This document shows, one piece after another, positions 17,689-31,040 of a DNA stretch of 64,000 nucleotides. Under the pieces are notes generated by a model. It was not told the DNA's origin, searched no databases, and was given only the letters and a program-made list of their open reading frames with translations. Position numbers and translations under genes: made by a program. How positions within the stretch are numbered: position 1 is the stretch's first letter; every line of letters begins with the position of its first letter. The stretch spans positions 124,001 to 188,000 of the forward strand of contig NZ_JADFAJ010000003.1 of NCBI RefSeq assembly GCF_015665295.1, given 5' to 3'. This DNA comes from Maricaulis sp. Its GTDB lineage: Bacteria; Pseudomonadota; Alphaproteobacteria; Caulobacterales; Maricaulaceae.

Positions 17689-19424
17689 CAGACAGGTTCG
17701 GCCTCCGTCGGCGGTTCGGCCTTCTGGACAGGCACGGCCTCGCCATCGCCCTCCCAGTCCCTGGCCAGATAGCGTGAGGCCCAGAACATGAAGAAGGCAG
17801 CGACAAGATAGAGGCAGGCCCCGATCACGATCGAGATACGCAGCGACCCGTCGCCGAAGGTCGGCTGCAGGACGGTCGAGACCCGGCCCAGCACATAGAC
17901 CCCGCCGCCAATGCCCAGAAGATTGTTGATCAGCAGGAAGACCGAGGACGCGCTGGTTCGCATGTGCGGCGGCATCAGGTGCTGGAAGGCTGACAGGACC
18001 GGCCCGAGCCAGGCCAGACCCAGCGCCGTCGGGATGAAGAGGATGATCACCGCCAGCAGCGGCGAGGGTGCCATGATGCCGGCCCAGTAGAGCGGCGCGC
18101 TCAGCAGGAAGGCGATGGCAGGCACCATGGCGAAGGCCGAGCGCTTGGCCTTGCCCATGACATCCCCCATCACGCCACCGAGGAAAATCCCGAGACTACC
18201 GGCGACAAAGAGCACGCCCCCGAACAGCCAGCCGGTCTCGACGAGGCCGAGCTGAAAGCTGCGCGAGAAGAAAGAGGGCAGCCAGAAGAAGACGCCATAG
18301 CCCATCATCGAGGATGCCGAGGCGCCCAGGATCATCAGCCAGAAGCTCGGCTTCTCGAGCGCCAGCGACATGAAGTCCCGGAAGGCGGCGAAGAAGGCGC
18401 CCAGCAGGCCGCCGACCACAATATGACCGATCAGCCAGCCAATCGCCGCGCCACCGAAGCCGGCCCCGCCGAGGGCCGGAACCATCCATGCGACCAAAGC
18501 GGACAACGGCATGAGCACGGCAAGGCCGATCATCAGCATGGCCGGGCTGGTCGTGCGGGCGACCCAGCGGCCAGCCATCCAGCCGGACAGGGCACCGACC
18601 ACCGCCGCAACCGCCAGCAGCGGAACCGACTGGATCGAGGTCGCGCCGAAAACCAGCACGTTGAAGATCGACAACAGGCTCGGCAGCGCAAAGATGACCG
18701 CGCCGGCAATCGACAGGATGCGCGCCTTGCGGTCGGTATAGACGCCGACCATCTGCTTGTTCTCGGCCTTTTGGGTCGGGACGCTGTCAAACTGGCCGCG
18801 CTTGGGTTCCTTGACGATCAGCTTGAAAATCGGCGCGAGCACGACACCGGCGATACCGACGATGAAGAAGGCTGAGCGCCAGTCGAGCGCATCCGAGATG
18901 CCCCCGCCGGCGATCTGCGATCCGGCGATCACACCAAAGGCCGAACCGACGGGAATGCCCAGCGAGTAGATCGCCAGGGCGCGCGAGCGTTCGGCCGGCG
19001 GATGATAGTCGGCGATGATGGTATAGGCCGGGGCGACGCCGCCCGCCTCCCCGATCCCGACGCCGACACGCGCCAGGAAGAGCTGGGTGAAATTCTGGGC
19101 GAAACCGCTGAGGGCGGTGAAACCGCTCCAGACGGTCAGCGCCACGGTCATGATCCAGGTCCGGCTCATGCGATCGGCAAACCAGGCGATCGGCACGCCG
19201 AGCGTCGAATAGAGGACGGCAAAGGCGATGCCGCCGAGCAGGCCAAGCTGCTCGTCGGTCAGGCCGAGATCTTCCTTGATCGGAATGGCGAGGATGGAAA
19301 TGATCTGGCGATCAAGAAAGTTGAACGCATAGACCAGGAACAGGAGCAGCATGACGAGGCTGCGATATCCCGGGCTGACTTTCTGGTCAGCGCCAGGCGC
19401 GCCGCCGCTGGTTTCATTCGCCAT
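17688..19424 (-). CDS. MFS transporter, spinster-like
   Basis: A 578-residue polytopic inner-membrane transporter of the major facilitator superfamily. After a soluble N-terminus comes FLVYAFNFLDRQIISIL, the spinster-type helix 1, then the loop 2-3 motif GVPIAWFADRMSR, then LARVGVGIGEAGGVAPAYTIIADYHPPAERSRA split across helices 4-5. Twelve or more helices can be traced, with a longer central loop (VPTQKAENKQMVGVYTDRKAR). Bacterial relatives include transporters of hydrophobic acids and steroids, but the substrate here is unknown. It heads an operon with the alpha/beta hydrolase. Two adjacent palindromes at 19496-19523 lie 72-99 bases upstream, which suggests repressor control. Confidence 0.88.
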   Translation of the reverse strand: MANETSGGAPGADQKVSPGYRSLVMLLLFLVYAFNFLDRQIISILAIPIKEDLGLTDEQLGLLGGIAFAVLYSTLGVPIAWFADRMSRTWIMTVALTVWSGFTALSGFAQNFTQLFLARVGVGIGEAGGVAPAYTIIADYHPPAERSRALAIYSLGIPVGSAFGVIAGSQIAGGGISDALDWRSAFFIVGIAGVVLAPIFKLIVKEPKRGQFDSVPTQKAENKQMVGVYTDRKARILSIAGAVIFALPSLLSIFNVLVFGATSIQSVPLLAVAAVVGALSGWMAGRWVARTTSPAMLMIGLAVLMPLSALVAWMVPALGGAGFGGAAIGWLIGHIVVGGLLGAFFAAFRDFMSLALEKPSFWLMILGASASSMMGYGVFFWLPSFFSRSFQLGLVETGWLFGGVLFVAGSLGIFLGGVMGDVMGKAKRSAFAMVPAIAFLLSAPLYWAGIMAPSPLLAVIILFIPTALGLAWLGPVLSAFQHLMPPHMRTSASSVFLLINNLLGIGGGVYVLGRVSTVLQPTFGDGSLRISIVIGACLYLVAAFFMFWASRYLARDWEGDGEAVPVQKAEPPTEAEPV

Positions 19425-19495
19425 GATCTTTTCCCCTCAAGGCCTGCCGGTCGTTGTCCGACCGTGCAATGCGTCTCTCTCCGTCGACGCAAACA

Positions 19496-19523
19496 TGAAT
19501 GGTCATTCAGGTTTGGTCAAACC
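19496..19523 (-). promoter_or_regulatory. Two adjacent 14-bp palindromes over a putative promoter
   Basis: TGAATG-GT-CATTCA (19496-19509) is immediately followed by GGTTTG-GT-CAAACC (19510-19523). Both are perfect six-base inverted repeats around the same GT centre. On the minus strand TTGACC lies inside the second and is followed after 17 bases by CATGTT, a possible -35/-10 pair for the MFS gene. The TGAATGNNCATTCA form resembles TetR-family operators; no TetR gene is in the window. Confidence 0.6.
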
Positions 19524-19628
19524 CGATTTCCATGCCGTGCCTGTCTGCGATAGAATGCAGACAGCCACGATGCGTGCACGATGTTGCACAGAAACCGGGC
19601 CATGCCCAATAATTGATAGGGGGTTGAG

Positions 19629-21332
<1,704 letters not shown>

Positions 21333-21354
21333 GTCGCCGGGGATCCGGATGAAG

Positions 21355-21390
21355 GAAGGGCGGCCCGCCATGCGGTGCCGCCCTTCTTGT
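21355..21390 (+). terminator. Hairpin terminator after the M28 peptidase gene
   Basis: A perfect 10-bp stem (GAAGGGCGGC, 21355-21364, with GCCGCCCTTC, 21377-21386) with an inner CCGC/GCGG stem in the loop, followed by TTGT. The T tract is short but position and stem strength fit a terminator. Confidence 0.75.
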
Positions 21391-21490
21391 CTGGCCTGAC
21401 AAGCCGGAGGACCGTCCCGACCATTGCACACAATCTCAAGCACCGGGCGTCAGGATCACACCGAAAAACCGCCAGGGGAAACAGGGCAGA

Positions 21491-21910
21491 ATGGACGGAT
21501 CGACACCGGCATTGAGCCTGGCCGGGCTGGTACTCGCGCTTGCGGGCACGGCCCAGGCCCAGGATTTCGGCATGCCGCAAGATGATGATTACTTCACCGC
21601 CCTATCGCCCGATGGCGCGACCGTGCAATTCCTGTTTGGTGGCCCGAGCGGGAGCATGAGTCCCACTCCGGGGCCCCGCTCCGGCAGTGTTCAATTCGGA
21701 ACGACAGACGACTTTCCGGGCTTCTGGGCGGTGGACAATGAGAGCGGCGAAATCACGGTGCCAATCATCGACCCCTACTCGCTTGCCGGCACGTGTGATC
21801 GCTGGCCGGACTACATAGTCGGCGAAACACTTCCGACGGCATCCGAGCGGGCCTGCTGGCTGCCGGAGCAATTCAGTCAATACACATTGACCTATCACGG
21901 CCGGCAATAA
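21491..21910 (+). CDS. Exported protein of unknown function
   Basis: A 139-residue protein with a signal peptide (residues 1-24, ALSLAGLVLALAGTAQAQ) and a mature part rich in Gly, Ser and acidic residues. Two Cys (GTCDRWPDY and RACWLPEQF) could form a disulfide. No family recognised. The ATG at 21491 has AGGGCAG 6-8 bases before it. A GGCCGG-N6-CCGGCC inverted repeat (21899-21916) covers its stop codon and may help end transcription between this gene and the convergent regulator gene. Confidence 0.65.
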   Translation: MDGSTPALSLAGLVLALAGTAQAQDFGMPQDDDYFTALSPDGATVQFLFGGPSGSMSPTPGPRSGSVQFGTTDDFPGFWAVDNESGEITVPIIDPYSLAGTCDRWPDYIVGETLPTASERACWLPEQFSQYTLTYHGRQ

Positions 21911-21979
21911 CCGGCCCGGCGACTGGCCGGCGATAAGACCCGATCGAAATGTCAGAGAAGGGCGCCTGTCGCCACGACC

Positions 21980-22621
21980 TCAGAAGGTCCGGCGCACCAC
22001 GACCTTGTCACCGCGTTCTTCCAGCCGTTTGGCATAGCGCTTCTCGTCCAGCGTGGCCCCGGAATGGATGCAATAGACGGTGCGGGCCTCGGAGATGCGC
22101 GGCCAGTGGATGAAGTCGCACAACAGCGACTGCATGCCCGAGGACACATTCACTTCCAGCGTGCCAAGGCTCTGGGCGAAGGCGAGATTGTTCTGGAACA
22201 TGCCTTCGGCGCGCAATTGTTCGAGCGCGGCCGTGAAGTCGCCACCGAGGAAGTTGCGGATATTGCGGCCTTCGATCTCGTTGCGACGAAGGCCGAACAG
22301 ATCGAGTGCGCCGAGCGAGATCGCCTTGATCATGCCCATGGAGTCGGTGACGAATTCGACGGACGGATTGAGGGAGACCAGATCGACCCAGGTAGGCGCC
22401 GGCGCGATGACGAAGGCATCCTGGACCAGTTCCGCCATGCGGCGCTTGATACGTTCGGGCGGTTCGCTGTCGCCGTTTTCCCAGCGCGAGATCATGGCCT
22501 GGGTCACACCGAGATCGGCCGCCAGTGCCGCCTGTTTCAGCCGCTTCGACATTCGGAAATTGCGAATGACCGAGGGCCAGTTGACCTTGCTCGATGTCAT
22601 CGACAGCTTGATGTCTTCCAC
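21980..22621 (-). CDS. XRE-type HTH regulator with PAS-like C-terminal domain (copy 1)
   Basis: A DNA-binding regulator of about 213 residues. Residues about 15-60 form an XRE helix-turn-helix (RLKQAALAADLGVTQAMISR, then WENG). The rest resembles a PAS fold (VEFVTDSMGMIKAISLGALD, GLRRNEIEGRNI) ending with the IHWPR and IHSGA stretches shared with the next two genes. No ATG fits: GTG at 22621 lies 8 bases after a strong AAGGGGGGGAG, with TTG at 22624 equally possible; the ATG at 22600 has no ribosome site. Alignment with copy 3, which also starts about 14 residues before WPSVIR, supports the early start. Last gene of a three-gene tandem array. Ligand and targets unknown. Confidence 0.82.
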   Translation of the reverse strand: MEDIKLSMTSSKVNWPSVIRNFRMSKRLKQAALAADLGVTQAMISRWENGDSEPPERIKRRMAELVQDAFVIAPAPTWVDLVSLNPSVEFVTDSMGMIKAISLGALDLFGLRRNEIEGRNIRNFLGGDFTAALEQLRAEGMFQNNLAFAQSLGTLEVNVSSGMQSLLCDFIHWPRISEARTVYCIHSGATLDEKRYAKRLEERGDKVVVRRTF

Positions 22622-22653
22622 CAACTCCGCTCCCCCCCTTGCGGGCCTTGCGC

Positions 22654-23307
22654 TTACCGGTGCGCGTGTCCGGTGACCGCAACCTGTCCGCCCAATTCTC
22701 CGCGCAGCACCTCAAACTCCTGCAGGCTTACGCGTGCGCCGGTCAGCATCCACCGAAGCGATCCATCTTCTGCCTCATGCGGCCAGTGCAGTCCATGCAC
22801 CGGCCCAATATCGGGTTTACCATGTGAAAAGGCAAAACAATACCGGTCTGCACTTTCAGCGCTTTCAATCGCGCCCTCAAAGAAGCCTCTTTCCGCCAGC
22901 GTGTTGAACAGATCAACCAGATCTCCCGCAAACATCGCTTCAAGCCGGACGCCTTCCATTTGCGGGCGCGCCAGGCTGGCATCCCGGGCGAGGCCGAGGC
23001 TCGCGGTTTCGATCACGCCGTCGCGATTGAGCACCGCGGCGATGCCCGGCTGGAAGGCGACATGATTGCGCCAGCCGACCAGCGGCGACGCCATGTCCCC
23101 GGTCATTCCGGCGAGCGCCCGAATGCGCGCCTGCATATCAGCGGCCGGTTGCACGGCGCCGGATTCCCAACGCGACACCATCGCCTGGGTGACGCCCAGA
23201 TCATGCGCCAGCGCCGCCTGCTTCACATTGTTCGTGAAGCGGTAGCGACGCAGCAGATTGCGCCAGAACTGGGGATCGGTCGGGGCAGGTCGCCCGGCTA
23301 TTGCCAT
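22654..23307 (-). CDS. XRE-type HTH regulator with PAS-like C-terminal domain (copy 2)
   Basis: A 217-residue paralogue of its neighbours. The helix-turn-helix at about residues 18-60 is nearly identical to copy 3 (KQAALAHDLGVTQAMVSRWE). The C-terminal half keeps the PAS-like pattern (AAVLNRDGVIETASLGLARD), the GFFEG and SAES motifs, the HGLHWP motif and a final LTGA stretch. The ATG at 23307 starts 3 bases after the stop of copy 3; the next gene begins 29-32 bases downstream, so all three are one operon. Divergence is greater in the sensor than in the DNA-binding half, suggesting similar operators but different signals (inference). Confidence 0.85.
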   Translation of the reverse strand: MAIAGRPAPTDPQFWRNLLRRYRFTNNVKQAALAHDLGVTQAMVSRWESGAVQPAADMQARIRALAGMTGDMASPLVGWRNHVAFQPGIAAVLNRDGVIETASLGLARDASLARPQMEGVRLEAMFAGDLVDLFNTLAERGFFEGAIESAESADRYCFAFSHGKPDIGPVHGLHWPHEAEDGSLRWMLTGARVSLQEFEVLRGELGGQVAVTGHAHR

Positions 23308-23310
23308 CAG

Positions 23311-23955
23311 CTAGATCGCCTTCCGGATGACTTTCGCCCCGCCGAGGCGCGCCACCACGTCGGCATGGACCCGCTCGGACACGTCCGCGCCGGACAACAA
23401 CCAGACGATCTCCGGACCCGGCAGGAAAGTCGGCCTGTGCAGCCCGTGCACAAAGCGCCGGCGACGCTCTCCGCCCGGGGCCAGGAAGGTGATCGCATCA
23501 ATGCTTTCCGCCGAAGCCACGCGCCCCTCGAAAAACCCGGACGACACCAGGGCGCCATGCAGGTCTGGCCAATCGCCGTCAAAGGCTTCGTGTATGTAGC
23601 GACCCTCCAGCGCGTGCCGGCTGCAATCCAGGCTGCGCTGAAAGCCGCGACTGGCCCGCAGGATACGGCCATCGGCGTTGATCACGCCCACCACCGCCGG
23701 GTGGCGGCCGATCCGGTCCATCCAGGCGTCGCGCGAGACCGAAGCCTGCGAGGTCCAGTAAAGATCGACGATGTGTTCCTGGATCCGGTCGGAGGGTATG
23801 GCAGCGGCGGACTCCCAACGCGACACCATGGTCTGGGTCACGCCAAGATCGTGCGCGAGGGCGGCCTGCTTGAGCCCCTTGGACAGGCGGTAATGTCGGA
23901 TAACGGAAGGCCAGTGAATGGCCTGGACGTCGAGTTTCAAACTCGTATCGGTCAT
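23311..23955 (-). CDS. XRE-type HTH regulator with PAS-like C-terminal domain (copy 3, operon head)
   Basis: A 214-residue regulator. The helix-turn-helix (KQAALAHDLGVTQTMVSRWE) is at about residues 26-62. The PAS-like part includes VVGVINADGRILRASRGF, the GFFEG and SAES motifs and HGLHRP, and ends with LSGADVS. The ATG at 23955 is chosen over the longer frame because GGAGAAG lies 7 bases upstream. It heads the three-gene array and diverges from the PiT-like permease gene across a 234-base region holding palindromes at 24045-24055 and 24066-24087. These proteins may regulate themselves and the permease, but that is inferred from position only. Confidence 0.86.
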   Translation of the reverse strand: MTDTSLKLDVQAIHWPSVIRHYRLSKGLKQAALAHDLGVTQTMVSRWESAAAIPSDRIQEHIVDLYWTSQASVSRDAWMDRIGRHPAVVGVINADGRILRASRGFQRSLDCSRHALEGRYIHEAFDGDWPDLHGALVSSGFFEGRVASAESIDAITFLAPGGERRRRFVHGLHRPTFLPGPEIVWLLSGADVSERVHADVVARLGGAKVIRKAI

Positions 23956-24044
23956 GAGCGCTTCTCCGGATCGAGAGGGCGCGCCGGTGCCGGCCATCGG
24001 CGACTATATTAAATAACCTGCTTTGGTGGCCCTGTGAAGCCTGA

Positions 24045-24087
24045 TGCTTAAAGCAACCAGTTGGACGCAAATGCATGCCCATTTGCG
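24045..24087. promoter_or_regulatory. Palindromes in the divergent regulator/permease region
   Basis: A perfect eight-base inverted repeat, CGCAAATG (24066-24073), spacer catgcc, CATTTGCG (24080-24087), lies 103 bases before the permease start. An 11-base palindrome TGCTTaAAGCA (24045-24055) is just beside it. Both are plausible operators for the HTH proteins encoded on either side. An AT-rich stretch at 24003-24016 could be the -10 region of the regulator operon. Confidence 0.5.
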
Positions 24088-24189
24088 ACACTTGTGTGAA
24101 AATGCGGCGTGGAGGTGAGACGCTGATTGATCGATGGGTCAAGGGTTTGCTACCTGCCCCGGCGTTTCAATTCCAAAGGGGTGCCGGCC

Positions 24190-25317
24190 ATGGCCGATCT
24201 GAACACTGCGGTCTGGGTCTTCTCGATTATCGGCTTCCTCATTGCCGCCTATTCCATCGTCGCCAATGACGCGATCCAGACCCTGGGTACCTTTCTCAGC
24301 TCCAATGCCAAACGCCCCTGGTATGTGCTGTGGGCCTATGCCTGCTCGATCATTGTCGTGGTCATGTTGTGGGGGTATTTCGGCGGCGATGGCGATATCG
24401 CTTTCGACCGGCTCAACTCCCTGCCCTATCCGGAAGGCGGGGTTCAGTGGTGGCATGCCATCCCGCCGCTCTTCCTCCTGATCCTGACCCGCTATGGCAT
24501 CCCGGTTTCGACCACCTTCCTCGTCCTGACCATTTTCGCCCTGACCGGCGGCGCCAATACCGAAGGCGTGCTGCCGAAGATGCTGATGAAGTCGGCACTG
24601 GGATATCTGGTGGCGATCAGCGCCGCCTTCTTCGTCTACATGATCATTTCGCGCATCTTCGAACGCTGGATCGATCGCACGAGGGACAAGCCGCATCACC
24701 CCTTCTGGTTCGTCGCGCAATGGTGCGCGACCGCTTTCCTGTGGGCGCAGTGGCTGATGCAGGACCTGGCCAACATCTTCATCTTCCTGCCCCGCACGAC
24801 GGAACTCATCCCGGTCCTCGACGGCGAGGGTTTGCCGCTGATGCAGGAAGGCGTCGCGGTGATGCAGACGCAGGTGACCTTCTCGCCCGTCCTGCTGGTC
24901 TTCGCGACCGTGGTGATGCTGGCGCTTCACGCGATCATTTTCCGCAATCGCGGTGGCGAGATCCAGAAAATCGTCCTGTCAAAGACCAACTCGACCGACA
25001 TCCGGGCGGCAACCGCCATCGATCTGATCTATGGCGTGATCCTGTTTATCTTCAAGGAACTCAATGACGTGCCGATGAGCACGACCTGGGTCTTCCTCGG
25101 CATGTTGGCCGGCCGCGAAATCGCGATCGCCTATGTCGCCGGACTGCGCTCGAAAATGGCCGCCCTGTGGGATGTCACCTCCGACGTGCTGCGCGCCTTC
25201 CTCGGCCTGATCATCAGCGTCGTGCTCGCCATCTTCCTGCCAGCCTGGGCGCGCGGCGAGCTTGGCGCACTGATGTCGGACCTGCCCGGCTATGTCGCGC
25301 GGGCACTGGGTCTCTAG
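24190..25317 (+). CDS. PiT-like integral membrane protein (divergent inorganic phosphate transporter homologue)
   Basis: A 375-residue polytopic inner-membrane protein with about eight to ten helices. Two internal repeats each resemble the PiT/SLC20 signature: the N-terminal one has ANDAIQTLGTFLSSN then YGIPVSTTFLVL; the second has KELNDVPMSTTWVFLGMLAG. Classical PiT proteins read 'GANDVANAFGT' and 'P.STTH', so the Asn-Asp and P-STT positions are kept while the rest has drifted. Phosphate or another oxyanion coupled to an ion is the best guess. The ATG at 24190 follows AAAGGGG by 9 bases; the frame upstream is non-coding in character. It is flanked on both sides by XRE/PAS-like regulators. 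It is not certain that it transports anything. Confidence 0.72.
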   Translation: MADLNTAVWVFSIIGFLIAAYSIVANDAIQTLGTFLSSNAKRPWYVLWAYACSIIVVVMLWGYFGGDGDIAFDRLNSLPYPEGGVQWWHAIPPLFLLILTRYGIPVSTTFLVLTIFALTGGANTEGVLPKMLMKSALGYLVAISAAFFVYMIISRIFERWIDRTRDKPHHPFWFVAQWCATAFLWAQWLMQDLANIFIFLPRTTELIPVLDGEGLPLMQEGVAVMQTQVTFSPVLLVFATVVMLALHAIIFRNRGGEIQKIVLSKTNSTDIRAATAIDLIYGVILFIFKELNDVPMSTTWVFLGMLAGREIAIAYVAGLRSKMAALWDVTSDVLRAFLGLIISVVLAIFLPAWARGELGALMSDLPGYVARALGL

Positions 25318-25347
25318 CCCCGCCCATCAGCCGTTCGTGTGTGGGTT

Positions 25348-25364
25348 ATTCATATTATATGAGT
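25348..25364 (+). promoter_or_regulatory. AT-rich 17-bp near-perfect palindrome upstream of regulator copy 4
   Basis: ATTCATAT-T-ATATGAGT is an inverted repeat with one mismatch per arm pair, in an otherwise GC-rich region, 63 bases before the downstream TTG start. The GGTTATT just before it also occurs upstream of the three-gene regulator operon (minus strand, about 24012-24018). It could be an operator or overlap a -10 region. Confidence 0.45.
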
Positions 25365-25392
25365 GCTGATTCATGCCGGATGGGCGCCAAGA

Positions 25393-25416
25393 TAACCTCT
25401 AAATTCAAAGGGGTTA
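25393..25416 (+). promoter_or_regulatory. Hairpin that would hide the ribosome site of regulator copy 4
   Basis: TAACCTCT (25393-25400) can pair with AGGGGTTA (25409-25416) with one G-U pair and an eight-base loop. The right arm contains the AAGGGG ribosome site of the gene starting at TTG 25427, so translation could be controlled by opening this stem. It may equally act as a DNA palindrome. Confidence 0.4.
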
Positions 25417-25426
25417 GATTTCCGTC

Positions 25427-26023
25427 TTGGAAATTGACTGGGCAAAGACTGTACGTTCGCTGCGTCTGCGGCTGAGGCTCAAACAGGGCGCGATGGCAGA
25501 GCTCATCGGCGTCAGCCAGACCTATGTCTCACGCCTGGAAACCGGTCTCGTCCTGCCGCCGCCCGCAGTCGCCGAGGCCGTGCTCAGACTGGCCGAAGAC
25601 CCGCGCACCCGGTCCCTGTTCGACGATCTGCGCGCGACGGTCCATCACAGCCCCTTTCCCTGCCTGCTGCTGCAGACCGGCCCCGGCGGCCGCAGCGTCG
25701 AAGCGGCGAGCGCCGACATGGCGCGCGACTTTCTGGCTGGCCGCAGACAGATTGATGACGCCCCGGCGCTTGACCGCCTGATCAGTGATCTCGACGCCAT
25801 GGCGGGTCAGGGCCTGCATGACGGCAACATTCTGGGGGCCTCGGCCGTATGGATCGACATCAACCGGTCCGACCGGTTCTGGCAGGTGCGCTACACGCCG
25901 ATCCGCGACGAGACCGGAGCCAGCTTCATGCACGTCACCCTGGCCGGCCTTGCCGACAGTCCCGCCGCCCGGGCTGCCGCCAATGACGCAACACCCCGGG
26001 TCGAGCGCTTCACCGGAAACTAG
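25427..26023 (+). CDS. XRE-type HTH regulator with divergent C-terminal domain (copy 4)
   Basis: A 198-residue regulator. The N-terminal helix-turn-helix (LRLKQGAMAELIGVSQTYVS, then RLETG) aligns with copies 1-3 including the preceding IDWAKTVRSLR. The C-terminal region (SPFPCLLLQTGPGGRSVEAA, FWQVRYTPIRDETG) is PAS-like in pattern but far from the other three. The start must be TTG at 25427: an in-frame TAG lies just upstream and the next ATG would cut the HTH. The rare start and the hairpin over its ribosome site suggest low or regulated synthesis. Its TAG overlaps the stop codon of the convergent korB gene (CTAG). Confidence 0.78.
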   Translation: MEIDWAKTVRSLRLRLRLKQGAMAELIGVSQTYVSRLETGLVLPPPAVAEAVLRLAEDPRTRSLFDDLRATVHHSPFPCLLLQTGPGGRSVEAASADMARDFLAGRRQIDDAPALDRLISDLDAMAGQGLHDGNILGASAVWIDINRSDRFWQVRYTPIRDETGASFMHVTLAGLADSPAARAAANDATPRVERFTGN

Positions 26024-27072
26024 CGATAGCGCGACTGCAGCTTGGCCAGCGCCGCCTTGCCCGGTGTCAGGCGCTCATAGGGCACCTGGTTGAGCGGGAT
26101 TTTCGGCAGCTTGTTGGCGGCCTGCATGTCCGGCAGATCGCTGTTGAGATACAAAAGGCCCGTGCGGATCTCGCCTTCGGTCTTGTTCATCAACAGGGTC
26201 TCGATCGCCTGCGCCCGGTCGCGCGGATCATAGTCATCCGCCGTCTTGCGCATGAACAGCTCACCGCCATCGGCCATCGCCACCCGCATCGCCCCGTCCT
26301 TGTCATAGGACCCGGTGACCTCGTCGGCATGGGCGACGAAGTCGGTGTGCACGAGCGGGTGATAGTATTTGTAGGTATGGGCATAGCTTTTGGTCGAGCC
26401 GGCATGGTCATTGAAGGTCACGCAGGGCGAGATCACGTCGATCAGGGCAAAACCCTTGTGCATCAGCCCGGCCTTGATCAGCGGGATGAGCTGCGACTTG
26501 TCACCGGAGAAGGCGCGCGCCACGAAACCGGCACCCAGCGTCAAAGCCTGGACGCAGGGATCGATCGGCATCTGGTCGTTGGAAACGCCCTTCTTCGACT
26601 TCGAGCCATAGTCAGCGGCCGCCGAAAACTGGCCCTTGGTGAGCCCGTACACGCCGTTATTCTCCAGGATATACAGCATGTTGAGATTACGCCGGATGGC
26701 GTGGGCAAACTGCCCGAACCCGATCGACAGGGAATCCCCGTCACCGGAAATGCCGATATAGTGCAGATCGCCATTGGCCGCATTGGCGCCGGTCGCCACG
26801 GAAGGCATGCGCCCGTGCACGCAATTGATGCCGTGCGACTGGCCCATGAAATAGGCGGTCGTCTTGGACGAACAGCCGATGCCGGAGACCTTGGCCGCGC
26901 TTTCCGGCGCCAGGTCCAGCTCCCAGAAGGCCTGGACCAGGGCGGCAGTGACCGAGTCGTGGCCGCAACCGGCGCACAGGGTCGACATCACGCCTTCATA
27001 ATTACGCACCGACAGGCCCAGCTTGTTCTTGGGCAGATGCTTGTCGATGAAGGGTTTGCTCATGGAGGTCAT
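26020..27072 (-). CDS. korB: 2-oxoacid:ferredoxin oxidoreductase, beta subunit
   Basis: The thiamine-diphosphate subunit of a 2-oxoacid:ferredoxin oxidoreductase, probably for 2-oxoglutarate, which forms the acyl-CoA and passes electrons to ferredoxin in the cytoplasm. The 350-residue protein shows the Cys pair in STLCAGCGHDSV, GIGCSSKT, and the ThDP/Mg motif GISGDGDSLSIG with ENNGVYGLTKGQ. The ATG at 27072 overlaps the alpha-subunit stop by 4 bases; a second Met (MSKPF) three residues on is also possible. It is the last gene of a three-gene operon. Substrate specificity (2-oxoglutarate rather than pyruvate or branched chain) rests on overall similarity. Confidence 0.92.
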   Translation of the reverse strand: MTSMSKPFIDKHLPKNKLGLSVRNYEGVMSTLCAGCGHDSVTAALVQAFWELDLAPESAAKVSGIGCSSKTTAYFMGQSHGINCVHGRMPSVATGANAANGDLHYIGISGDGDSLSIGFGQFAHAIRRNLNMLYILENNGVYGLTKGQFSAAADYGSKSKKGVSNDQMPIDPCVQALTLGAGFVARAFSGDKSQLIPLIKAGLMHKGFALIDVISPCVTFNDHAGSTKSYAHTYKYYHPLVHTDFVAHADEVTGSYDKDGAMRVAMADGGELFMRKTADDYDPRDRAQAIETLLMNKTEGEIRTGLLYLNSDLPDMQAANKLPKIPLNQVPYERLTPGKAALAKLQSRYR

Positions 27073-28904
27073 GCGACGTCTCCCAGGGCTTCCAGATGGG
27101 CTGAAATGCCCTCGATGATGAATTTCGGATTGGCGGCCATGCCGGCGTAATCGAGGATCGAGACCAGCTTGTGCTTGGGCGCATCGGTCTCGTTGACCAG
27201 AAGCGAGCGCAACTGGCCGTCACGGTTCTGCTCGACCACGAAGACCTCGTCATACTGGTCGATGAAAGCGTCGACCTCGGCATTGAAGGGGAAGCCGCGC
27301 ACCCGCAGATAATCCAGGTTCACGCCATTTTCGGTAAAGCGGTCGAGCGCTTCAAGGACAGCGCCATCGCAGCCGCCCACCGAGATGATCGCCCGCCGGG
27401 CATCCTTGCCACAGCGCGTGATCACCGGCGCTGGGACAGCATTGGCGGCGTTCTTCCACTTGGTCGTCAGCCGATCGAGCACGACCTTGTACTCCTCGGC
27501 ATCCTCGGTATAGCCGCCCTTCCAGTTATGCCCGGAACCGCGGGTGAAATAGGCGCCCTTGGGATGGGTACCCGGCAGGGTCCGCCAGGCGATGGCATCA
27601 CCGTCGCGGTCTTCGTAACGGTAGAATTTCTCGAGCGTCTCGATCTGGGCGGCGGTCAGAACCTTGCCGCGATCGGGCTGGTAGCTGTCATCCCATTCCA
27701 GTTCCGGGATCATCCAGTCATTCATGCCGATATCGAGATCGGTCATGAAGAAGACCGGGGTCTGGAAGCGCTCGGCAATATCGAAGCTCTGCACCGCCAT
27801 CTCGAAGCATTCCTTCGGATTGGCCGGGAAGAGAAGGATATGCTTGGTATCGCCATGGCTGGCATAGGCCGCCAGGGTGAGATCGCATTGCTGGGTTCGC
27901 GTCGGCAGGCCGGTCGAGGGGCCGGCGCGCTGCACGTCGAACAGCACCACCGGCACTTCGCCATAATAGGCAAAGCCGATGAACTCGCTCATCAGCGAGA
28001 TGCCGGGACCCGAGGTCGGCGTGAAGGACCGCGCGCCATTCCAGCCGGCGCCGATCGCCATGCCGATCGAAGCCAGCTCGTCCTCGCCCTGGATGATGCA
28101 GAAATTCTTCTCGCCGGTCTCCGGATCGACCCGGAATTTCTCGCAGAAGCTCTTGAAGCCATCCATCAGGGAGGTCGACGGCGTGATCGGGTACCAGGCG
28201 CCAAAGGTCGCCCCGGCATAGACGCAGCCCAGCGCCGCGGCCGTATTGCCATCGATCATGATGTGGCCGGCGGTCTTGTCCATCGGCTCGATGCGCAGCG
28301 GCAGCGGGTCGGGAAAATGCTCGCGCACATAGTCCAGACCCAGCCCGATCGCCTTCATATTGGCGTCGATGAGGTGTTCCTTGGTGCCGAACATCTCCTT
28401 GACCAGGCCGCGGATGACCTCGACATCGAGCCCGGTCAGACCGGCCACGGCGCCGACATAGGCCATGTTCTTCATCAGCACGCGGGTGCGGGCATTGTCG
28501 AAGGCGGCATTGACCAGGCGGGCCAGGGGCACACCGATCGCGGTGACATCCGCTCGGGCATGCAGGTCCGGCCTCGGCCAGGTCGAGTCATACAGGAGGA
28601 AACCGCCCGGCGAGACTTCGGCGAGGTCTTGGCGGTAGGTCTCGGCATTCATCGCGACGATGAATTCCGCCGTCCCGGAGCGGGCCATGTAACCGTCCCT
28701 GGTGAGGCGGATCTCATACCAGGTCGGCAGCCCCTGGATATTGGAGGGAAAGAGGTTTTTCCCCACCACCGGCACGCCCATGCGGAAGATCGCCTTCATC
28801 AGCAGGCCATTGGCCGAGGCCGAGCCGGTGCCGTTCACATTGCCGATCTTGATGACGAAGTCGTTGACCCGGACTTCGCCTGACACGTCCACGAGATCCT
28901 TCAT
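27069..28904 (-). CDS. korA: 2-oxoacid:ferredoxin oxidoreductase, fused gamma-alpha subunit
   Basis: A 611-residue protein combining the gamma domain (about residues 1-185, IGNVNGTGSASANGLLMKAI) with the alpha domain (from about residue 200, GNTAAALGCVYAGATFGAWY, PITPSTSLMDG, GEDELASIGMAIGAGWNG). This fused layout is the usual form of bacterial two-subunit KorAB enzymes. It partners the beta subunit downstream, with an ATGA overlap at each end, so all three operon products are translationally coupled. The ATG at 28904 starts the gamma domain directly. Confidence 0.93.
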   Translation of the reverse strand: MKDLVDVSGEVRVNDFVIKIGNVNGTGSASANGLLMKAIFRMGVPVVGKNLFPSNIQGLPTWYEIRLTRDGYMARSGTAEFIVAMNAETYRQDLAEVSPGGFLLYDSTWPRPDLHARADVTAIGVPLARLVNAAFDNARTRVLMKNMAYVGAVAGLTGLDVEVIRGLVKEMFGTKEHLIDANMKAIGLGLDYVREHFPDPLPLRIEPMDKTAGHIMIDGNTAAALGCVYAGATFGAWYPITPSTSLMDGFKSFCEKFRVDPETGEKNFCIIQGEDELASIGMAIGAGWNGARSFTPTSGPGISLMSEFIGFAYYGEVPVVLFDVQRAGPSTGLPTRTQQCDLTLAAYASHGDTKHILLFPANPKECFEMAVQSFDIAERFQTPVFFMTDLDIGMNDWMIPELEWDDSYQPDRGKVLTAAQIETLEKFYRYEDRDGDAIAWRTLPGTHPKGAYFTRGSGHNWKGGYTEDAEEYKVVLDRLTTKWKNAANAVPAPVITRCGKDARRAIISVGGCDGAVLEALDRFTENGVNLDYLRVRGFPFNAEVDAFIDQYDEVFVVEQNRDGQLRSLLVNETDAPKHKLVSILDYAGMAANPKFIIEGISAHLEALGDVA

Positions 28905-30697
28905 TCGGCAGCCACTTTCCTCGTTTCATCGTCGACATGCGGGATGAAGATGTCGGCATCCTGCATGTCCCAGGCCGCCGTCGGGCAGCGCTCGGCGCAC
29001 AGGCCGCAATGCAGGCAGAGATTTTCATCCTTGATCATCACCCGGCCGGTATCTTTCAGCGGCTCGGAGACAAACAGCGCCTGGTCCCTGTTGCTGGCGG
29101 GCACCCGCAGCGACTGGCGCAGCTCGGCCTCTTCGGCATTCGGCACGATCGACAGGCAGTCGACCGGGCAGATATCCATGCAGGCATCACATTCCTTGCA
29201 CAGAGGCGCCTCGAACACGGTCTGGACATCACAGTTCAGGCAGCGCTGGACCTCGGTCGCGATCTGCTCGGCGGTGTAGCCTGTCTCGACCTCCATCTTG
29301 CGATTGGACAGGCGCGCCGTGAGTTCGGCCAACGGCATCTGCCGGCGATGCTCGCCGGTATAGCTGTTGGAATACATCCACTCATTCACGCCCATCTTGG
29401 CGGATTGAAGGTTCACGCCGCGCGGCAGGCGCTGGTCGAGTGCCGTGCCCTCGCAATGCTTGTGGATCGAGATCGCCGCCTGGTGGCCATGCTCGACCGC
29501 CCAGATGATGTTCTTGGGGCCAAAGGCGCTGTCGCCACCGAAGAAAATACCCTTCCGCGTCGACTCATGGGTCTTCTCGTCGACGACCGGCACGCCCCAT
29601 TTGTCGAACTCGATACCGATATCGCGCTCGATCCAGGGGAAGGCGTTTTCCTGGCCGATGGCGAGGATGACATCCGTGCAGGGGATGATCTTGGTGCCGG
29701 CAATCCGGGTGTCGGTGATCCGGCCGTCCTCATCGAGCTGATACTCCATCAGCTCGAATTCCATGCCGGTCAGCCGGCCATTCTCGACCACGAAACGCTT
29801 GGGCGAGTGATTGACCAGGATTTCGACATTCTCGTCCTCGGCATCCTCGAGCTCCCAGGGGGAGGCCTTGAAGAATTGCCGCGGCTTGCGGGCCATCACC
29901 TTCACATCATCCGCACCGAGGCGCAGCGAGGTCCGGCAGCAATCCATCGCCGTATTGCCGACCCCGATGATCAGGACCTGCTTGCCGATCCTGTCGGTGT
30001 GCTCGAAGGCGACGCTTTCCAGCCAGTCAATGCCGATATGGATGTTGGCAGCCGCCTCGTCGCGGCCCTCGATCTTCAGATCCTTGCCCTTGGGAGCACC
30101 GGTGCCGATGAAGACAGCGTCATAGCCGCTCTCGCTCAGGGCCTTGAGGCTCTCGATCCGGTGGCCGGTCTTCAGCTCGACACCCTGGTCGAGAATATAG
30201 CCGATCTCCTCGTCCAGCACTTTTTCCGGCAGGCGGAAGGAGGGAATGTTGGCGATCATCAGCCCGCCGGGCCGGTGATGGGCTTCGAAGATCGTGCACT
30301 CATAGCCCAGCGGGGCGAGATCATTGGCCACGGTCAAGGACGCCGGACCGGCGCCGATCAAGGCAATCTTCCGGCCATTCGTCGTTGCCGGCTTTTGCGG
30401 CAGGAGATGCTTCACCTCGTCGCGATGATCGGCCGCAACCCGCTTCAGGCGGCAGATCGCAACTGGCTCTTCCTCGACCCGGCCACGCCGGCAGGCCGGC
30501 TCGCAGGGCCGGTCGCAGACCCGGCCGAGAATGCCCGGGAAGACGTTGGAACGGCGATTGACGAGATAGGCTTCGGTGAATTCACCTTGCGCAATCAGGC
30601 GGATATACTCGGGCACCGGCGTGTGTGCCGGGCATGCCCACTGGCAATCCACGACCTTGTGATAATAGTCGGGATCGCGCGTATCGGTCGGCTTCAT
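28901..30697 (-). CDS. GltD-like FAD/NAD(P) oxidoreductase with N- and C-terminal Fe-S domains
   Basis: A 598-residue flavoprotein. The N-terminal domain resembles that of glutamate synthase small subunit/dihydropyrimidine dehydrogenase (CQWACPAHTPVPEYIR, CDRPCEPACRRG). Then come the FAD motif (IALIGAGPASLTVANDL) and the NAD(P) motif (VLIIGVGNTAMDC). Near the C-terminus are a Cys cluster (CKECDACMDICPVDC) and a second 4Fe-4S motif (CLHCGLCAERCP). It most likely moves electrons between NAD(P)H and the KorAB enzyme or ferredoxin. The ATG at 30697 follows GAGGAG closely; the upstream extension is non-family. It heads the operon and ends in an ATGA overlap with korA. Confidence 0.9.
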   Translation of the reverse strand: MKPTDTRDPDYYHKVVDCQWACPAHTPVPEYIRLIAQGEFTEAYLVNRRSNVFPGILGRVCDRPCEPACRRGRVEEEPVAICRLKRVAADHRDEVKHLLPQKPATTNGRKIALIGAGPASLTVANDLAPLGYECTIFEAHHRPGGLMIANIPSFRLPEKVLDEEIGYILDQGVELKTGHRIESLKALSESGYDAVFIGTGAPKGKDLKIEGRDEAAANIHIGIDWLESVAFEHTDRIGKQVLIIGVGNTAMDCCRTSLRLGADDVKVMARKPRQFFKASPWELEDAEDENVEILVNHSPKRFVVENGRLTGMEFELMEYQLDEDGRITDTRIAGTKIIPCTDVILAIGQENAFPWIERDIGIEFDKWGVPVVDEKTHESTRKGIFFGGDSAFGPKNIIWAVEHGHQAAISIHKHCEGTALDQRLPRGVNLQSAKMGVNEWMYSNSYTGEHRRQMPLAELTARLSNRKMEVETGYTAEQIATEVQRCLNCDVQTVFEAPLCKECDACMDICPVDCLSIVPNAEEAELRQSLRVPASNRDQALFVSEPLKDTGRVMIKDENLCLHCGLCAERCPTAAWDMQDADIFIPHVDDETRKVAAE

Positions 30698-30769
30698 GCT
30701 CCTCACCCCGGGCTTGCACCCGTTCCGTATTATGGGCCGGCGACCGTCGAGGGCCGCAGAATTGCGTCC

Positions 30770-30800
30770 ATTCTCACATGGTGAACGCCGCAAGGGTCAA
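30770..30800 (-). promoter_or_regulatory. Possible promoter of the oxidoreductase operon
   Basis: On the minus strand TTGACC (30795-30800) is followed after 18 bases by TGAGAA (30771-30776), about 75 bases before the ATG at 30697. The -35 is good, the -10 weak. Confidence 0.35.
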
Positions 30801-30907
30801 GCGATTTCCCCTTTAAGCGACCGATTGCGCACGGCTTTGTTTGTTAGTGCGAAGCAAGTGCAAAATGGTGGCGGTAACGGAGGGGGTTGAGCATTTCGAA
30901 CCATCAT

Positions 30908-31040
30908 TTGTCATCCCGGCCGGAAGCCTGCGAAAGCAGGCTGCAGAGCCGGGACCTATACGCTCGGCGTGGCAATCATTGGTGGGTATGGGTCCCGGAT
31001 CTGCGTCCCGCTTCCGCGGGACCTCCGTCCGGGATGACAA
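30908..31040 (+). repeat. Palindromic intergenic repeat, copy 1
   Basis: 133 bases bounded by perfect 12-bp inverted termini, TTGTCATCCCGG (30908-30919) and CCGGGATGACAA (31029-31040). Inside is a hairpin (AGCCTGCGAAAGCAGGCT) followed by GCAGAGCCGGGACC, then a second stem (GCGTCCCGC..GCGGGACC). It resembles the small non-autonomous 'GTCATCCCGG' repeats scattered in alphaproteobacterial genomes. A related copy lies inverted at 31734-31852. Confidence 0.85.

Follow-up and report, generated by a model that had tools for sequence, protein, structure and literature searches.

The 64,000-nucleotide stretch of Maricaulis sp. DNA that was analysed as a whole (hereafter the window; genome G000, contig C2, in our genome comparisons) contains three tandem paralogous genes, regC, regB and regA, which probably form an autoregulatory array. 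We propose that they constitute an operon of three cytosolic one-component regulators, each with an XRE helix-turn-helix (HTH) and a PAS half, and that one or several of the array proteins would bind, in dimeric form, a 15-bp dyad, GTTATA-N3-TATAAC, which overlaps the regC promoter at its -10 region. Binding would repress, or tune, the operon itself, PAS signalling would alter it, and the three regulators could share the dyad via an invariant recognition helix. Autoregulation appears to be the best-supported mechanism, and we give the complete scheme, in which the operon controls itself through a shared, PAS-modulated dyad, about an even chance. Self-control and shared recognition are proposed because the dyad is conserved on the regC promoter and because the recognition helix and the dyad of a remote paralogue, regD, differ in parallel from those of the array.

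The genomic comparison was based on 299 genomes of the order, among which 12 Maricaulis genomes provide the unbiased figures for the genus. A search with regC gave 10 loci, in which regC is present by construction; 5 of them belong to genomes already among the 12, so that 17 distinct genomes were compared in total. Of the 15 regC-bearing genomes, 14 have GTTATA-N3-TATAAC upstream of regC with no more than one mismatch, for an expectation of 0.0 (300 dinucleotide shuffles per upstream region). It is the best-conserved 15-mer in the approximately 300 nt preceding regC (mean column conservation 0.92): both arms are conserved, symmetrically and beyond the -10, and the N3 centre is variable. A TATA-type -10 lies inside the dyad in 14/15 of these regions, with TTCACA at 17 nt in 10/15. 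The dyad is also tied to the presence of regB and regC, as neither G158 nor G088, the two genomes without these genes, has it at the locus.

We also scanned the 12 genomes entirely. With at most one mismatch 16 sites were found, 9 at regC and 7 elsewhere, and the reversed pattern gave 22; a genome-wide regulon based on this dyad was therefore rejected, since the sites are not in excess over the reversed pattern. Another candidate operator, the inverted repeat CGCAAATG-N6-CATTTGCG (24067-24088), was discarded as well: it is perfect in the window only and is not conserved in the aligned relatives.

The three-gene array seems to be specific to Maricaulis within the genomes searched. An orthologue of regA is present in 12/12 genus genomes and the order regC-regB-regA is kept in 10/12; G158 and G088 have regA alone. 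A decayed relic of regB (48-52% identity across about 44-48 aa) is still recognizable in G158, and the genes were therefore lost there, rather than never gained. The M28 peptidase gene adjoins regA in all 17 genomes. Outside Maricaulis, no array was found in the 299 order genomes, where the regA search gave only a distant match for five other family members, and a search of 385 genomes of the class returned only the window's own array and one distant single match. Within the regulator family, tandem pairs were seen in G039, G203 and G292 and a triple in Maricaulis only. We found no paper on this array in a search limited to open-licence PubMed Central papers.

Examination of the proteins agreed with an earlier note, made from the DNA letters of the window, which had placed four regulators and a permease here and had described three of the regulators as tandem paralogues with related DNA recognition. 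HTH_3 and HTH_31 (Cro/C1-type HTH) scored above the Pfam cut-offs in all four window regulators, which are about 198-217 aa long, and HTH matches (E ≤ 1) were obtained for 28/28 members of the family; a PDB sequence search returned HTHs of the 434 and P22 c2 types. The segment V-T-Q-x-M-x-S-R-W-E is invariant across 42 RegA, RegB and RegC sequences, and RegD has VSQTYVSRLE at the corresponding place. Given this same recognition helix, a competition of the three proteins for one operator is possible. Other motifs that the note had regarded as common are shared in part: (S/T)GA near the C-terminal end is found in all three proteins and GFFEG, SAES and HGLH in RegB and RegC, but RegA has GMFQN, AQS and DFIHWP.

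The PAS half that had been suspected is predicted in each of the four regulators, by structure modelling for RegC, by alignment for RegA and RegB, and by profile for RegD, the Pfam PAS matches being sub-threshold in all of them. The AlphaFold2 model of RegC (predicted local distance difference test, pLDDT, 87.9) consists of an HTH and a PAS domain, and Foldseek aligned it with PAS domains of the PDB (TM-score, TMt, 0.57-0.71 for the best single-domain matches). The RegD profile aligned with that of RegA, RegB and RegC over 172 columns spanning both halves (99.1% probability). Pfam also holds a model of the MmyB-type ligand-binding domain; it is absent among the matches (E ≤ 1) of the four window proteins, and we identified no conserved cofactor-binding residue in the regulators.

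Identities of the orthologues to the window copy, given for the HTH and PAS halves respectively, are 89-100 and 55-97% for RegA, 61-96 and 36-77% for RegB, 63-93 and 40-93% for RegC, and 52-93 and 28-85% for RegD. The ratios of non-synonymous to synonymous substitution rates (dN/dS), measured against four relatives, are 0.02-0.06, 0.16-0.21, 0.05-0.11 and 0.12-0.20 in the same order, indicating that the four genes are under purifying selection and evolve as proteins. In trees, RegA, RegB, RegC and RegD each form one clade, and RegD stands apart. A second tree, computed with a subset of the RegA to RegD rows, groups the first three with one long-branch Maricaulis protein (support 99/93); L179 and L069 have very long branches in it.

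We regard regD as an older paralogue that stands apart from the array and has a related dyad of its own. Upstream of regD, TCATA-N3-TATGA was perfect in 8/13 genomes, with one mismatch in 4/13 and two in 1/13. In comparison with the dyad of regC, one symmetric position differs, TCATA replacing TTATA, and this difference is paralleled in the recognition helix (VSQTY-SRLE in RegD). We also counted the dyads of the regD type (TTCATANNNTATGAGTGC, at most 2 mismatches) in the 12 Maricaulis genomes (for example at L139, L140, L155-L158 and L162) and obtained 43, while the reversed pattern gave 3. Some 31 of the 43 are located away from regD, and RegD, or a different factor, may thus have a wider regulon.

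A bolder version of the scheme, which we hold to be unlikely, is that the three co-operonic sensors share one operator and hetero-oligomerise, thereby integrating three PAS inputs, and that the older RegD reads a sister operator differing by one symmetric base pair. Logic of the kind proposed for the array is known from a paralogous XRE set of Caulobacterales, the RtrA, RtrB, CdxA, CdxB and TgrL proteins of Caulobacter and phage phiCbK, which have highly similar HTHs, overlapping sites and hetero-oligomers seen by two-hybrid assay; in the available part of that source, however, no PAS half is described and the genes occupy separate loci instead of one operon (PMC10688885). CdxB, at 132 aa, carries a putative dimerization domain (PMC13236601). 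The window regulators, of the greater length given above and with a PAS half, differ from such short proteins (about 130 aa), which have a small tail for dimerization. MltR (MmyB-like; 3pxp) has an N-terminal Xre-type HTH and a C-terminal PAS-like ligand-binding domain, binds as a dimer to a two-fold site and has a fast-evolving PAS half, but its 291 residues include additional helices, its ligand is a fatty acid and it is found mostly in actinomycetes (PMC3406030); our RegC model aligned poorly with 3pxp (TM 0.24). FG214 of Fimbriimonas (10jx) is similarly built, with an N-terminal HTH, a C-terminal PAS and a one-component dimerization switch, whereas its HTH is of the LuxR type, its heme is bound by two histidines and it is a single gene (preprint PMC13060918).

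If it is true, the self-controlling array would be a small natural system for studying how duplicated one-component sensors split signals with unchanged DNA recognition: the operator and the recognition helix would be fixed throughout the genus while the PAS halves diverge, two species having lost two genes plus the operator. The analysis also points to what seems to be an undescribed HTH-PAS family in Caulobacterales, present in two recurring settings, with TonB receptor and phosphodiesterase genes or with cytochrome bd, HemAT and BLUF genes.

To analyse these settings, 28 loci of the family other than the array were hand-chosen from two sets of search matches and are thus not random. A divergent TonB receptor gene was observed at 8/28, 6 of them with a glycerophosphodiesterase (GDPD) gene and one with a metallophosphoesterase gene; 7 of the 8 regulators form the clade next to RegA, RegB and RegC (93/85), and the eighth is L179. 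The intergenic regions of these loci are PHO-box-like by score, no permuted word out of 150 being as good as the consensus. We also observed a direct repeat, CRCMT-N5-CRCMT, upstream in 8/8 of these loci (L062-L064 and L175-L179; expected 0.026 per 300 nt). It is a candidate operator of this sister group and is absent upstream of regC. Because the nearest relatives of the array proteins face TonB receptor and phosphodiesterase genes, and because the usual divergent neighbour in Maricaulis encodes a PiT-fold permease and is preceded by a PHO-box-like element, we tentatively place the array in nutrient and energy supply; phosphorus source or energy state is our leading guess for the signal, with low confidence.

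Sensing of oxygen, redox state or light by the array proteins is, in our opinion, unlikely, although 11/28 family loci, two of them in Maricaulis, contain genes for a HemAT-type protoglobin fused to a methyl-accepting chemotaxis protein (6), BLUF (7) or cytochrome bd/CydDC (6), and the island in which the array lies also holds an oxoacid:acceptor oxidoreductase and often a formate dehydrogenase. In the trees the majority of these relatives fall on the side of RegD and RegE and not with RegA, RegB and RegC, the choice of loci was not random, and the lack of an identified cofactor-binding residue also argues against such a role. At six of these loci (L170, L171, L174, L181, L067 and L068) the regulator gene stands beside that of a HemAT-type oxygen sensor, often with BLUF and cytochrome bd genes.

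Several observations weigh against the self-controlling array. The window copy of the dyad carries 3 mismatches, no promoter was detected in the window by a strict scan for sigma-70 sites, and the -35 fits are poor in L010, L011, L012, L056 and L057. An AT-rich dyad placed on a -10 could partly stem from promoter constraint. The two genomes devoid of any dyad have kept regA, and RegA at least therefore has another role there. Among 33 other members of the family, a perfect 5-3-5 dyad with AT-rich arms was found upstream of 3 only, and TTATA or TCATA arms upstream of none, so that a dyad common to the whole family was rejected. Concerning the signal, the HemAT/BLUF-linked Maricaulis members L067 and L068 swap sides between the two trees, and neither the TonB/GDPD setting nor the cyd/HemAT/BLUF one would by itself prove a ligand.

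The earlier note had seen a sensory cassette controlling one transporter as well as itself. A site of self-control is likely, the only conserved dyad being on the array promoter, but the transporter part was left unsupported. That the array senses signals in order to control the divergent permease, in addition to itself, is distinctly unlikely. The orientation would suit this assumption; the permease gene is at the array locus in 14/17 genomes and beside the array in all 10 permease-bearing genus genomes. Moreover, since the clade next to RegA, RegB and RegC is divergent from uptake genes, control of a divergent transporter would be in character. However, while the regulator genes keep company, the permease gene does so only partly: there is no copy anywhere in the genomes of G088 (regA alone) and of G188, which has the full array and the dyad. 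It is present in 113/299 order genomes, 103 of which are outside the genus, and none of the 20 loci of the latter kind that were inspected contained a regulator of this family. No second dyad was detected near the permease gene, and the conserved block closer to it is common to homologues without the array. In view of the permease-less genomes and the array-less permease loci, the permease was rejected as the fixed target, that is the core function, of the array.

Most likely, the permease is an independent, probably Pho-controlled phosphate transporter. The PiT-type assignment holds for the fold, and Pfam gave no match for the window copy, which falls below the PHO4 profile cut-off. Its model is of moderate confidence (pLDDT 77.7), and the only convincing PDB match was the sodium-dependent phosphate transporter TmPiT (6l85; Foldseek probability 1.00, E 3.1e-3, TM 0.54), of the same fold with 13% identity; the profile of the permease found no PDB sequence match. 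PHO4 was matched weakly by 20/29 members of the permease family (E ≤ 10; best E 3.4e-4), and dN/dS of the permease gene is 0.05-0.09. The conserved block is a PHO-box-like repeat, also present upstream of permease homologues without the array, and it was scored with a PHO-box consensus. Such repeats scored above 149/150 permuted words in 10 of the 14 array-linked Maricaulis permease upstream regions (L009, L015, L051 and L057 were left out) and above 150/150 in 20 permease upstream regions from other genera; single sites are weak (9-12/14), and in L007, L012 and L051 (3/13) the aligned element is not the top-scoring site. Two permease loci outside the genus, L104 and L105, adjoin pstSCAB-type genes.

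A primary role in controlling formate and C1 genes (fdsGBA-fdhD and the formate-tetrahydrofolate ligase gene), which form a divergent string in several species, is more doubtful still. fdsGBA is at the locus in 6/17 genomes, divergent from the array; the permease is the first gene in 3 of them (G093, L014 and L015), and fdsG is faced directly by regC or regA in the others (L010, G188 and G088); the gene identities were checked. The ligase gene is at the locus in 4 of the 12 genus genomes (G093, G188, G103, where it follows the permease gene, and G088), elsewhere in 6 and absent in 2. Against this, fdsA is at the locus in 3 of the 12 only, elsewhere in 4 and absent in 5, all of which keep regA and 4 the full array; the fds region of G000 (L050) yielded no dyad. 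With such variable placement of the two genes the formate link is not fixed, and formate dehydrogenase was rejected as a fixed target.

The least probable explanation is that the dyad is conserved as a promoter element only and that the array consists of tandem duplicates decaying without joint function, as the losses in G158 and G088, the regB relic and the fast evolution of regB might suggest; the symmetry of the arms past the -10, the three single clades kept together in 10/12 genomes and the strong purifying selection on regA speak against it.

Table 1. Features of the array locus, in window coordinates.
Feature	Position	Strand	Description
regA, XRE HTH + PAS regulator	21980..22624	-	third gene of the array, TTG start, present in all genomes compared; open reading frame (ORF) list; HTH_3/HTH_31, weak PAS_9
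regB, XRE HTH + PAS regulator	22654..23307	-	second gene; ORF list, Pfam, alignment
regC, XRE HTH + PAS regulator	23311..23955 (listed ORF extends to 23997)	-	first gene; Pfam, AlphaFold2 model, Foldseek
Candidate operator, degenerate copy (3 mismatches) of GTTATA-N3-TATAAC	24003..24017	-	overlaps the regC promoter at its -10 region (24010-24015)
Putative -35, TTCACA	24033..24038	-	-10-like TATTTA at a spacing of 17 nt
PHO-box-like 7-4-7 direct repeat (TTTTCAC-ACAA-GTGTCGC)	24085..24102	-	ranks second in conservation among the blocks between regC and the permease gene
PiT-fold membrane permease, divergent PHO4-family member	24190..25317	+	structure model, Foldseek, Pfam matches of the family
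regD dyad, TTCATA-N3-TATGAGTGC	25349..25366	+	upstream of regD
regD, remote XRE HTH + PAS homologue	25427..26023	+	Pfam, profile alignment, separate clade in trees

The gaps between the array genes, 3 nt for regC-regB and 29 nt for regB-regA, fit with co-transcription. The start of regC is probably the ATG at 23955 rather than 23997, because a GGAGA box and this ATG are kept in most aligned upstream regions and because a start at 23997 would fall about 6 nt from the promoter dyad. A search of 19000-31000 against Rfam matched no RNA element. A toxin-antitoxin reading was also rejected: the MqsA and HipB matches are confined to the HTH and below cut-off, and no toxin partner gene lies alongside, the neighbours being the M28 peptidase, permease and oxidoreductase genes.

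Between the M28 peptidase gene and regA, the window encodes a small protein with a signal-peptide-like start (21491-21910), which has no match in L006, 33-36% identity in L007 and L054, and 84-87% in L051 and L057. Downstream of the permease gene, regD is convergent with genes for an oxoacid:acceptor oxidoreductase (alpha and beta) and a GltD-like ferredoxin-type flavoprotein (26020-30793), which adjoin regD in many Maricaulis genomes.

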